Origin: Deltaproteobacteria bacterium RIFCSPLOWO2_12_FULL_60_19
GTDB lineage: Bacteria; Desulfobacterota; Binatia; UBA9968
Length of the DNA stretch: 49,926 bases
Assembly: GCA_001798595.1 (NCBI GenBank)
Contig: MGSS01000003.1
Location: 1-49,926, forward strand
Reading direction: 5' to 3'
Part shown: positions 28,082-32,092 of the stretch, in pieces
Layout of the letters: every line of letters starts with the position of its first letter
How positions within the stretch are numbered: the stretch's first letter is position 1
Position numbers and translations under genes: made by a program
The notes under the pieces: generated by a model
What the model was told of the DNA's origin: nothing
The model's input: the letters and a program-made list of their open reading frames with translations, nothing else
The model's database searches: none

Positions 28082-28582
28082 TCAGGCTTGCGGGTCGAAA
28101 TCTTTCCGGAGCTTCTTCATCATCGCGCGCAGATCCTGCCGCAGCTCTTCCGCCGTCGGGCGTCCCACGTACCAGTAGCCGCAGTAGAGATTGTGCACCG
28201 TCAAGTCCGGCATGAGCGAAAACGCGTAGGGGATCGCCGTATCGCCGCGCGATTTAGAACTCTCGACCATGTCCAACTGCCTGACCACCGAGCGGTCGTG
28301 GTCGCTCAAGAACGGAAAAGTCGCCCCCAACCCCGCGCGAAAGGCGGCGTTGACCTCCGGCGGATCGACGCTTGCCGCCGCGAGCTTGCAGTAGTTCACC
28401 GCCAACTCTTGCTGGAATTCGGTCAGCAGGCGCAACTGCACCTGGCATTTGGGTCACCAGTAGCCGCGGTAGAAAACCAAAATAAGCGGGAAGTTAGCCG
28501 CGATGTCGGAGAGTTTGATCTTTTTGCCGTCTTGATCCGGCATCTCCAGATCGGGAAATCGTTTGCCGATGGTTTGGTTCAT
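28082..28582 (-). CDS. Candidate selenoprotein: peroxiredoxin-like, Sec43 in UPKC
   Basis: An ATG at 28582 with AGGAGG upstream starts a 166-residue frame closed by a normal stop, with one in-frame TGA at codon 43 (28454-28456). The context is FYRGYW-TGA-PKCQVQLRLL. In the AhpC/TSA peroxiredoxin-like family this position is the redox Cys of the WCPxC motif, so TGA replaces exactly that Cys and leaves C46 as partner. The rest is a normal family sequence: GKRFPDLEMPDQDGKKIKL before, PFLSDHDRSVVRQL and IPYAFSLMPDLTVHNLYCGY after. A hairpin suited to a bacterial SECIS lies at 28427-28444. Translation as selenocysteine by SelB would give a Sec-containing thiol peroxidase. The alternative is a nonsense mutation or sequencing error; no frameshift or other stop supports decay. 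It was probably missed by standard gene callers, which would keep only the part after the TGA. Confidence 0.85.
28427..28444 (-). promoter_or_regulatory. Putative bacterial SECIS hairpin
   Basis: Read on the minus strand, CAGGUGC pairs perfectly with GCGCCUG (7 bp, one G-U) around the tetraloop AGUU. The loop starts about 16 nt after the UGA, and a G is among its first two bases, as described for bacterial SECIS elements read by SelB. The stem overlaps codons for conserved residues, so part of the pairing could be chance. Confidence 0.65.
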
Positions 28583-28616
28583 GGGGTTGCCTCCTGTTTG
28601 GCGGTATTCCCGACAC

Positions 28617-28679
28617 GTTTGAACGGCTTGAACGTTTTGAACGCATGAAACCGTTCAACTTGTTCAAAATGGTTCAAAC
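28617..28679. repeat. TTGAAC-rich inverted repeat
   Basis: Three TTGAAC units in the left arm (from GTTTGAACGG) and three GTTCAA units in the right arm (to GGTTCAAAC) make a 63-base imperfect palindrome. It lies between the GYD gene and the selenoprotein ribosome site. It may be a terminator-like or regulatory element or a dispersed repeat. Confidence 0.6.
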
Positions 28680-28724
28680 TGTAACGGCGCCAGCCAACTC
28701 ACTTGAGCCGCTGTGTCGGCTGTC

Positions 28725-29018
28725 TCACGGCATCTTCGCCAGAATCTTGCTCATCTCATCCGCCGAGTAGGCGCGCATGGTCTGCGTGCGGATGTTGCCC
28801 AGCGAGCCGACGCTTAAGCACAACGCCGTCATAGCCTCGTCGTCCGGCGCGTCGGCAACCAAAACCGCGTCATACGCGCCCAACGTCCAGAAGGTATCCT
28901 TTACTTTGACACCGAGCTTGGTCCCGGCCGCGGCAAGCGCCTTAGCCCTTTCAGTGGTCTGCTTGATGTTGCGCACGCCTTGATCCGTAAAGCTTACTAG
29001 AACTACATAGGTAGCCAT
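28725..29018 (-). CDS. GYD-domain protein
   Basis: 97 residues from the ATG at 29018 with AAGGAGGGACTC upstream. The short alpha/beta domain has the motif LGAYDAVLVADAPDDEA, the GYD-like region, and starts MATYVVLVSFTDQGVRNIK. Family proteins are uncharacterised small dimeric domains related in shape to ferredoxin-like folds. It lies upstream of the candidate selenoprotein on the same strand, separated by a repeat. Confidence 0.88.
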   Translation of the reverse strand: MATYVVLVSFTDQGVRNIKQTTERAKALAAAGTKLGVKVKDTFWTLGAYDAVLVADAPDDEAMTALCLSVGSLGNIRTQTMRAYSADEMSKILAKMP

Positions 29019-29077
29019 AAGAGTCCCTCCTTGTTTAAGGTTTGGAACGGCCTGACCCATCCTCCCGGATTTTGGAC

Positions 29078-29280
29078 CTACGTGTCGAGCGTGCTCGGGT
29101 GAAACATCTCCTCGGGTTTGAATCGACATAGAATTCGGCGACGTCGAATTGTGTCTGCGGGCGTCCCGGATCGTCGGTGACGTGAATATCTAGATCGATC
29201 CCTTCGGGCCTCACTTCTCCCTTGATCAGCGCCTGGGCGCGGTCGTAGGGGCCGCAGGTCATGGTTAACTTCAATCCCAC
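29078..29280 (-). pseudogene. Remnant of a 4,5-dihydroxyphthalate-decarboxylase-like gene
   Basis: A GTG at 29280 begins MGLKLTMTCGPYDRAQALIK and GEVRPEGIDLDIHV, the start of this substrate-binding-like family. After about 50 codons the sequence jumps, in another frame, to FKPEEMFHPSTLDT and a stop at 29078, which resembles the family C-terminus. The middle, probably some 250 codons, is missing. The remnant lies just upstream of the GYD gene, so the GYD gene may have lost an operon partner. Confidence 0.75.
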
Positions 29281-29311
29281 GTTGTTCGGGTCCTTCAGTC
29301 AGGCGGAAGAT

Positions 29312-29725
29312 TCACCGCGTGCTGGGCTGCTTCGGCGGGGCGTAAAGCTGGAGTAGATTCCCCTCGGTATCGAAAAAATAGAAGCCTCGTCCGGTGGCGC
29401 GTTCCACGGTTGGGATGTTGTAGACTTTTACGCCCCAATCTTTCATTTGTTTTACCGCCAGCTCGAAATCCTCAGGCTCCACGACAAAAGCCTGATGCGT
29501 TGCGCCTTCTTCTTCCAGCGCGTTTTTCTCTACGGGATGGGGACGCCGGAACAACGCGACCATGTCGTCGCCCGAGCGGAGATCGGCGCGGTTGAGCTTG
29601 TCTCCCATGTCGTCACGGCCCAACTTGGCGATCCTCATACCGAGAATCTCCGTGTAAAACTTAACCGCCCGCTCCATGTTGTTAACCGGAATGCCGATAT
29701 GGTGAATGCCCTTGGTCTTGATCAT
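29312..29725 (-). CDS. VOC/glyoxalase-family protein
   Basis: 137 residues, two beta-alpha-beta-beta-beta units. Likely metal ligands are the His in GIHHIGIPV, the His in EGATHQAFVV and the Glu in DTEGNLLQLYAPP. Phe and Tyr-rich C-terminal sequence (GFYFFDTEGN) is typical of VOC proteins. The reaction (isomerase, dioxygenase or glyoxalase) cannot be told from sequence. It sits beside an orphan SBP and a decarboxylase remnant. Confidence 0.9.
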   Translation of the reverse strand: MIKTKGIHHIGIPVNNMERAVKFYTEILGMRIAKLGRDDMGDKLNRADLRSGDDMVALFRRPHPVEKNALEEEGATHQAFVVEPEDFELAVKQMKDWGVKVYNIPTVERATGRGFYFFDTEGNLLQLYAPPKQPSTR

Positions 29726-29769
29726 CGTTCAGCCCCCGTGGGTCGTCGGGCGGAGTTTTGAAAAGCGGG

Positions 29770-30765
29770 CTACGGATATCGCTTCGCCATCTCGGCGAAG
29801 AAACCTTCCTTCTCCAATTCCTGAAGCAGGCTCAAGTCGACGAACTGCTCCGGTTTGGCGTTCTTCGCCTGGGGGAACTGCGGCGCGAATTCATCGAGCA
29901 GAAACTGAATCCCCTTGAGAGTCGGATAAGGTTTTTTGGCGACTCGCTTGACGAACCAGCCGGTGGTCGCCTCGAGCACCTCGGCATCGGTCGTGCGGAG
30001 ATACTTGGCGACGATCTTCTTGCTCTCGTCGCGTCTGCCGTGGATGTAATGGATCGCTTCGACGTAGCCCCGGAGCGCGGCTTTGACCGTGTCCCGCTGG
30101 CTCTTGATGAACGAGCGCGTCGTCGCAAAGCCGTTTCCCTGCACTTCCAGCCCCAGGTCCATCATGTCGTAGATTTCGGCGAAGCCCTGTTTTCTCGCGC
30201 GCGGGATTTCCGACGGAGTGAGCAGCGTTGCATCGATCCTGCCGGCGTCCATCGCCGCCAATCTCTCGATCGTGCCGCCGGCTAGCAGGATCGCCACGTC
30301 TTTGTTGGGCTCGAGGTTCAACCGGCGGAGCAAAATCAACGCCGCGTTGTGCGACGCGGAGCCGAAGCCGCTGACGCCTAATTTTTTGCCTTTGAGCTGC
30401 TCGATCTTGCCGATGCCCTGGCGGCCGACCACCGTATAAGCGTAGGCGTTTTCCGACGAGCCTATCAGCGCGAGGTCGTGGCCCTGGAGGCCCGCCTGCA
30501 CCACGGTGCCGATGTTGACGATGGGCGGGTCGCCGGCGACCAGCGCCTGGGTCGCCAACTGGCCGCCCCGGAAAAAAACCAACTCGGCGTCCAATCCGTA
30601 TTTTTTAAAGAGACCGGCTTCCTTGGCGATCCAGATGTGGATCTGGTTGTAGGAGATGGCCGGGTAGCCGATCTTGATTTTTTTGAGATCCTGGGCGCCG
30701 CCGGCGTTGGGTTGCGAGAGCAGCCAGATGCCGATCAGCAGAGCGAAGTAGTTCTTAAACTTCAT
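29770..30765 (-). CDS. Orphan NMT1-like ABC substrate-binding protein
   Basis: 331 residues with a signal peptide (FALLIGIWLLSQPNAGGAQ). The fold is the same NMT1/TauA type as the protein at 25625: HIWIAKEAGLFKKYGLDAEL and YVEAIHYIHGRRDESKKIVA resemble segments of that protein, so they are paralogues. No transporter genes are adjacent. Ligand unknown. Confidence 0.88.
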   Translation of the reverse strand: MKFKNYFALLIGIWLLSQPNAGGAQDLKKIKIGYPAISYNQIHIWIAKEAGLFKKYGLDAELVFFRGGQLATQALVAGDPPIVNIGTVVQAGLQGHDLALIGSSENAYAYTVVGRQGIGKIEQLKGKKLGVSGFGSASHNAALILLRRLNLEPNKDVAILLAGGTIERLAAMDAGRIDATLLTPSEIPRARKQGFAEIYDMMDLGLEVQGNGFATTRSFIKSQRDTVKAALRGYVEAIHYIHGRRDESKKIVAKYLRTTDAEVLEATTGWFVKRVAKKPYPTLKGIQFLLDEFAPQFPQAKNAKPEQFVDLSLLQELEKEGFFAEMAKRYP

Positions 30766-30793
30766 TTGACGACCTTGCCGGGTGGTCGCCGGA

Positions 30794-31069
30794 CTACCGG
30801 CGCTTCGTCTTGGCGGCCTTTTCGGCAGCCTCTTTCATATCGCTGATCTCTTTTTCCATGGTGAGCTTCTCGTTGGTGACCTTCCCGAGATTCGCCTCGG
30901 TGTCCGTCATTTTCTTCTTCATTTCGCCCATCTGCGCCTGTGCCGCCGCCAGCTCCTGTTCCACGCCGGCCAGCCGCCCGGCGCGCGCTCCCCAAACGAG
31001 GTAACCGAAAAGGATGCCGACAACAAAAGCTCCCACGGCGATGCCGGTCCAGTAGCCGTTCTTCATCAT
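30794..31069 (-). CDS. Small membrane-anchored coiled-coil protein
   Basis: About 91 residues from the ATG at 31069 (or 31066), with GGGAGGG upstream. One membrane helix (GIAVGAFVVGILFGYLVWG) is followed by a long charged coiled coil (LAGVEQELAAAQAQMGEMKK and onwards) that ends KAAKTKRR. Function unknown. Confidence 0.72.
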   Translation of the reverse strand: MMKNGYWTGIAVGAFVVGILFGYLVWGARAGRLAGVEQELAAAQAQMGEMKKKMTDTEANLGKVTNEKLTMEKEISDMKEAAEKAAKTKRR

Positions 31070-31140
31070 GATACCCTCCCTGTAGTTTAAGTGCGTTGGG
31101 CGTTGAACTACGGCAGTTTTATAAGAAATCTCCCGTTTCG

Positions 31141-31869
31141 TCAATTGGATTTGTTGAGCCAGTCGCGCGCGTCGAAAGATTTTCCAGTTACCCCTATGGA
31201 TTCGGGCGAGGCGAGATAAACAAAGACTGCCGTGATTTCATTGGGCGTCGGCAGCGTCAACGGGTCTTCCTCCGGGTAAGCCTCTGCGCGCATTTCGGTT
31301 CGCGTGGCGCCCGGGTTGACCGCGTTCACGCGGATGTTGAATTCCTTGACCTCTTCCGCCAGCAGCTGCGTCAACCCCTCGATGCCGAACTTCGACGCCG
31401 CATAGGCGCCCCAGCGCGCCTTGCCGATCCGCCCGACGCCGGAGGAGACGTTGATGATCGATCCTTCACGCCGGGCTATCATCAAGCGCAGAACTTCTTT
31501 GGTCACCAGGAACTGCGCCGTCAGATTGACCTTCAACACTTGTTCCCACGCGGCCAGGGGATATCGCGCGATCGGCTCGCGCGGGCCGAGAATACTCGCG
31601 TTGTTGACCAGGATGTGGATCGTGCCGTAGCGCCTCTCAGCCTCGCGCACCAGGCGCTTCACGTCGTTCGACCTGGCGATGTCCGCCGCGATCCAGCTTG
31701 CTTCACCGCCTGCGGCCTGAATCTCCCGCGCCGCCCGCTTAAGCTCCGCCTGCCTCCGCGCGCAGATCACGACCTTGGCGCCTTCCCGGGCATGGGCCAT
31801 CGCCACCGCCTTGCCGATTCCCCGGCTCGCGCCGGTGACGAGCGCAACTTTACCGGTCAAAACACCCAT
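31141..31869 (-). CDS. Short-chain dehydrogenase/reductase
   Basis: 242 residues from the ATG at 31869. NAD(P)-binding Gly motif TGASRGIGKAVA, structural NNAS (VNNASILG), catalytic Asn115 in VNLTAQ, Ser142/143 in NVSSG, Tyr156 and Lys160 in YAASK. An ATG at 31899 is an alternative start. Substrate is not evident; the gene is divergent from the benzoate-CoA-ligase-like gene. Confidence 0.92.
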   Translation of the reverse strand: MGVLTGKVALVTGASRGIGKAVAMAHAREGAKVVICARRQAELKRAAREIQAAGGEASWIAADIARSNDVKRLVREAERRYGTIHILVNNASILGPREPIARYPLAAWEQVLKVNLTAQFLVTKEVLRLMIARREGSIINVSSGVGRIGKARWGAYAASKFGIEGLTQLLAEEVKEFNIRVNAVNPGATRTEMRAEAYPEEDPLTLPTPNEITAVFVYLASPESIGVTGKSFDARDWLNKSN

Positions 31870-32092
31870 ACAGCATTCTTTCCCCGTACTTTCTATCATT
31901 CCGAGGAATGACTTCAAAGGCTGTTGCACGGCACTTCACAGTCCGTCTAAACGGCGCCATCCTTGCTGATGCTGCCGACGTTATGCCGGGATTGATGAAG
32001 AGTGCGTTATCGGATACTTTCCCTCTACAGAGACCCTCTTGAGTTTTGATCGCGCTCAAGACTACGTCGACGTACACAGTGAAGGTGCAGAT

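Follow-up and report, generated by a model that had tools for sequence, protein, structure and literature searches.

Prx-like thiol:disulfide oxidoreductases are a known family of selenoproteins, which Table 1 of a review (PMC13188914) lists as predicted, without experimental verification. The family is defined by a thioredoxin-like UxxC motif, where U is selenocysteine (Sec), that replaces TxxU (PMC1088965, 'Prx-like protein'), and it has been reported from Deltaproteobacteria (PMC1794560). In the bSECIS model as given in the review (PMC13188914), the hairpin that accompanies the UGA has a stem of 4-16 bp and a loop of 3-9 nt with a G at one of its first two positions, at a spacing of 16-37 nt and with a minimum free energy of -7.5 kcal/mol or lower. 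Sec-peroxiredoxins carry Sec at the peroxidatic position of the pattern PxxxTxxU. The ResA/TlpA oxidoreductases have CxxC, and the SelL motif is UxxU.

The gene described here lies in a stretch of 49,926 nucleotides of Deltaproteobacteria bacterium RIFCSPLOWO2_12_FULL_60_19 (contig MGSS01000003.1), which is referred to below as the window. It is read from the minus strand (Table 1). The 166 codons from the ATG to the TGA stop are interrupted only once, by a TGA at codon 43, in the sequence context YRGYW-U-PKC. A preliminary description of the locus had reported one continuous frame with a ribosome-binding site ahead of the start, the TGA at codon 43, Cys46 and a normal stop; all of these are found in the sequence, the strand having been left unstated, and the observation is real. 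As that description also anticipated, ordinary annotation misses the gene: standard ORF calling yields only a 119-aa ORF beginning with GTG (28441-28082). The window holds 11 frames that combine an in-frame TGA with a nearby Cys, and this gene is the only one among them that looks genuine when judged by eye. An Rfam scan of the window at gathering cut-offs gave no matches. The gene is almost certainly an intact selenoprotein gene, in which UGA 43 would be read as Sec to give a 166-aa thioredoxin-fold Prx-like protein with the motif UPKC. That Sec is inserted at codon 43 is what we infer, with strong support from the comparisons described below.

Table 1. Features of the selenoprotein locus and its upstream neighbours (positions in the window)
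Feature	Position	Strand	Basis or remark
Predicted gene of a 166-aa selenoprotein, a Prx-like redox protein with UxxC (PF00578)	28082..28582	-	ATG 28582-28580, stop TGA 28084-28082
In-frame UGA, codon 43, predicted selenocysteine	28454..28456	-	TGA in 31/31 close orthologues; distant relatives carry TGC or TGT
Codon TGC of Cys46, the other redox residue in UxxC	28445..28447	-	Asp in relatives L067-L071
Predicted bSECIS hairpin CAGGUGC-AGUU-GCGCCUG, loop 28437-28434	28427..28444	-	Synonymous constraint, covariation, fold, bSECIS model constraints (PMC13188914)
Shine-Dalgarno AGGAGG, 7 nt ahead of ATG	28590..28595	-	Sequence
SsuA/NMT1-like substrate-binding protein (neighbour)	29770..30765	-	In relatives, often found ahead of the selenoprotein gene
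YciK-like short-chain dehydrogenase (match below cut-off; neighbour)	31141..31929	-	In relatives, often precedes the selenoprotein gene

With Cys placed at residue 43, the full-length translation matches the AhpC/TSA domain (PF00578) with 80.4 bits against a gathering score of 26. No NCBIfam model reaches its cut-off, and for this reason the family is probably misannotated throughout. The best of these models, that of the SelL-related redox proteins (NF040769), scores 42.5 bits where 120 are required, which places the protein outside that family; it has, moreover, a single Sec, in UxxC. The AlphaFold2 model (pLDDT 90.5, pTM 0.88) has a peroxiredoxin fold, and residue 43 is located immediately ahead of a helix comprising residues 44-62, as in thioredoxin-fold active sites. 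Alignment to PrxQ-type structures pairs Cys46 with the peroxidatic Cys and Sec43 with the Thr of TxxC. Because of this alignment the predicted product is a Prx-like UxxC redox protein and not a peroxiredoxin with Sec at the peroxidatic Cys. UPKC agrees with the UxxC in place of TxxU by which the Prx-like family was defined (PMC1088965), and the PxxxTxxU arrangement is not found: the Sec-peroxiredoxins share the fold and PF00578 with the present protein, but its Sec is shifted by three residues towards the N-terminus, onto the Thr position. By their published description, the Prx-like thiol:disulfide oxidoreductases share with it the PF00578 domain, the UxxC motif, a bSECIS directly behind the UGA and the existence of Cys homologues. 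The ResA/TlpA oxidoreductases have the same spacing of redox residues and a related sequence; the present protein differs from them in having Sec, in a fold nearer to the peroxiredoxins and in the lack of a signal peptide visible by eye.

The chemistry of the protein can be read in two ways. It may, with somewhat lower probability, act as a true peroxidase with peroxiredoxin-like chemistry, given that its best sequence matches are PrxQ/BCP-type proteins and that the structures closest to the predicted fold are BcpB, Bcp4 and Prx6. In the sequence comparison, however, CxxC proteins of the thioredoxin-type ResA/TlpA group follow at a short distance, and a UxxC motif with Sec at the Thr position, instead of TxxU or TxxC, argues for a thiol:disulfide oxidoreductase. 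Residue 43 is probably the catalytic residue and a likelier nucleophile than Cys46, because all homologues have Sec or Cys there, whereas residue 46 is less conserved and is replaced by Asp in L067-L071. The earlier proposal that Sec occupies the catalytic redox Cys holds in so far as residue 43 is probably catalytic; with respect to the peroxiredoxins proper it has to be amended, since the residue aligns with the Thr of TxxC.

The gene is present in 22 of the 25 genomes of the family, and every copy contains exactly one TGA. It also occurs, with the TGA, in named relatives on GTDB contigs labelled as Deltaproteobacteria or Proteobacteria MAGs. Class-wide, matches were obtained in 46 of 148 genomes (E <= 1e-15), and a phylum-wide sample of 395 genomes contributed one further match outside the family, a distant one. 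The window gene and 30 close orthologues from independent assemblies all have TGA at the same alignment column (31/31), followed by PKC, GKC or AKC.

The hairpin stem starts 9 nt past the UGA and the loop 16 nt past it. With 7 bp, a 4-nt loop AGUU in which G is second, the 16-nt spacing and -11 kcal/mol, the hairpin lies within all the constraints of the bSECIS model as set out in the review (PMC13188914). The stem had been called a perfect one of 7 bp with an AGUU tetraloop. The seven pairs and the loop are there, but 'perfect' is a slight overstatement because one of the pairs is a U-G wobble, and many relatives form only the inner five pairs, which nearly all sequences share; 13 of the 30 orthologues lack the outermost pair and 10 the second. 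In context, the minimum-energy fold is modestly better than that of shuffled sequences (z about -1.8 to -2.1), an unexceptional value, and single-sequence folding energy was therefore rejected as sufficient proof of the hairpin. Among 30 sequences, 88.6% of the hairpin cells are paired, compared with 80.7 in shuffled alignments, and 18 cells are double-changed, with a covariation score of 0.160 compared with 0.054; none of 500 shuffles, which do not preserve the relatedness of the sequences, reached either value. Sliding the pairing partner by 1 to 3 columns reduces the pairing to 59% or less. Codons +5 to +8 past the UGA (GTG CAG TTG CGC) are identical in 29, 31, 31 and 29 of the 31 sequences, respectively, even though Val, Gln, Leu and Arg each have alternative codons. 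Synonymous identity amounts to 100% in the four-codon span from +4 to +7, the mean over 164 such spans being 50% (SD 11%). The TGA in 31/31, this synonymous identity and the covariation score reached by 0/500 shuffles place the hairpin beyond chance.

The absence of selA, selB, selC and selD from the genome had been named as an observation that would speak against a selenoprotein. All four are present in the source genome, and the objection therefore does not arise: the tRNA-Sec gene is found on contig C153 (76.6 bits, above the cut-off), and selA (603.7 bits), selB (379.5 bits) and selD (383 bits) adjoin one another on contig C142. The SelD frame of this cluster (L023, G000:C142:20857-21783) has an in-frame TGA of its own near the N-terminus, in the context KAAG-U-AAKLG, and the SelD of the source genome is likely to be a selenoprotein itself. 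SelA is encoded in 123 of the 148 genomes of the class. Two genomes that have the TGA form, G021 (completeness 100% by estimate) and G009 (93%), gave no detectable selA, selB or tRNA-Sec. Gaps in the MAG assemblies are the likely cause and the simplest reading, because the TGA-form genes of both genomes are as conserved as the others.

More distant members have Cys at the codon-43 site: L067 and L068 (genomes G426 and G425), L069 (G522) and L074 (G510). L069 is the sister of the Sec forms L070 and L071, and its site codons are TTT-TGC-CCC, as against TTT-TGA-CCT and TTC-TGA-CCC. The hairpin that follows the UGA in L070 and L071 has its loop nearer to the UGA or farther from it than in the window gene. 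SelA, selB and tRNA-Sec are all present in G438 and G450, the genomes of these two Sec forms. None of the three was detected at the cut-offs used in G522 or in G510, so the Sec machinery is undetectable in two of the four Cys-form genomes; G426 has the Cys form, yet retains all three. Three label changes are needed on the Cys/Sec tree, the direction of which can be given only tentatively because the tree is midpoint-rooted and long branches meet. The position of Cys46 is occupied by Asp in L067-L071, giving UPKD (L070, L071), CPKD (L069) and CPRD (L067, L068); none of the motifs taken from the review (PMC13188914) for PF00578 is UxxD or CxxD.

The Cys found in some relatives would also suit a UGA that is read through as Trp, Cys or a near-cognate instead of Sec. 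This reading is highly improbable. TGA also terminates this very gene and so does not act just as a sense codon in it, the genome has the full Sec machinery, and the SECIS-like hairpin is under synonymous constraint. The median dN/dS of the window gene relative to the 30 orthologues is 0.10 before the UGA and 0.14 after it, with synonymous sites near saturation, and both halves are therefore translated and selected. A pseudogene, or a sequencing or assembly error, is as a matter of general knowledge the commonest a priori cause of a lone in-frame stop in one MAG, but a chance nonsense change is scarcely credible here and is refuted by the orthologues, in which the same TGA recurs in independent assemblies with purifying selection on both sides. 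There is next to no probability that the UGA is a stop and that the functional product is the GTG-initiated ORF offered by standard ORF calling, since purifying selection acts equally on the 42 codons upstream of the UGA, and a product so shortened would be devoid of residue 43 and of the initial strands of the fold.

The selenoprotein interpretation put forward in the preliminary description is thus supported by the sel machinery, the TGA conserved in close orthologues, its exchange for TGC/TGT in distant relatives, and a stem that is conserved with covariation. In the mechanism that we propose for the selenoprotein, SelB, bound to the hairpin, would bring Sec-tRNA-Sec to UGA 43. The selenolate of Sec43 would probably attack a peroxide or disulfide substrate, Cys46 may resolve the oxidised selenium, and an external thiol system would then reset the enzyme.

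This kind of selenoprotein is already known elsewhere, and the present gene and its roughly 30 relatives are further members of it. They differ from the Prx-like family as published in that Sec is found in 31/31 close orthologues, in that distant relatives have UxxD or CxxD and in that the scores are below the NCBIfam cut-offs. The chances are about even that they represent a Prx-like subfamily without a name of its own, which belongs to an uncultured deltaproteobacterial class, seems to have used Sec for a long time and is as a rule encoded downstream of a short-chain dehydrogenase (SDR) and/or SsuA/NMT1-like gene; its more distant relatives would either have kept Sec in UPKD or have Cys for Sec, the latter in some cases where Sec machinery is missing. 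A literature search on Binatota and selenoproteins found no paper. In 20 of the 21 family genomes examined, the selenoprotein gene is preceded on its own strand by an SDR and/or SsuA/NMT1-like gene, in several of them within 30-100 bases, and there are hints that these genes and the selenoprotein gene share a transcription unit. In the window, GYD and glyoxalase genes intervene between the selenoprotein gene and these neighbours (28085-31929). The gene is a clean example of truncation by automatic annotation in a selA-rich lineage, and the conserved hairpin, together with the nearby Cys/Sec exchange, offers a ready-made set of cases for studying what SelB recognises and why Sec is retained.

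The same genome contains a second Prx-like frame (L010, G000:C143:15860-16345), with an in-frame TGA near L010:1618 in the context FYRGRW-U-PYC. The segment CAGCUC-GGC-GAGCUG past this UGA could form a hairpin, and the predicted fold of the stretch is no better than that of shuffles. The N-terminus encoded by this frame is signal-peptide-like.
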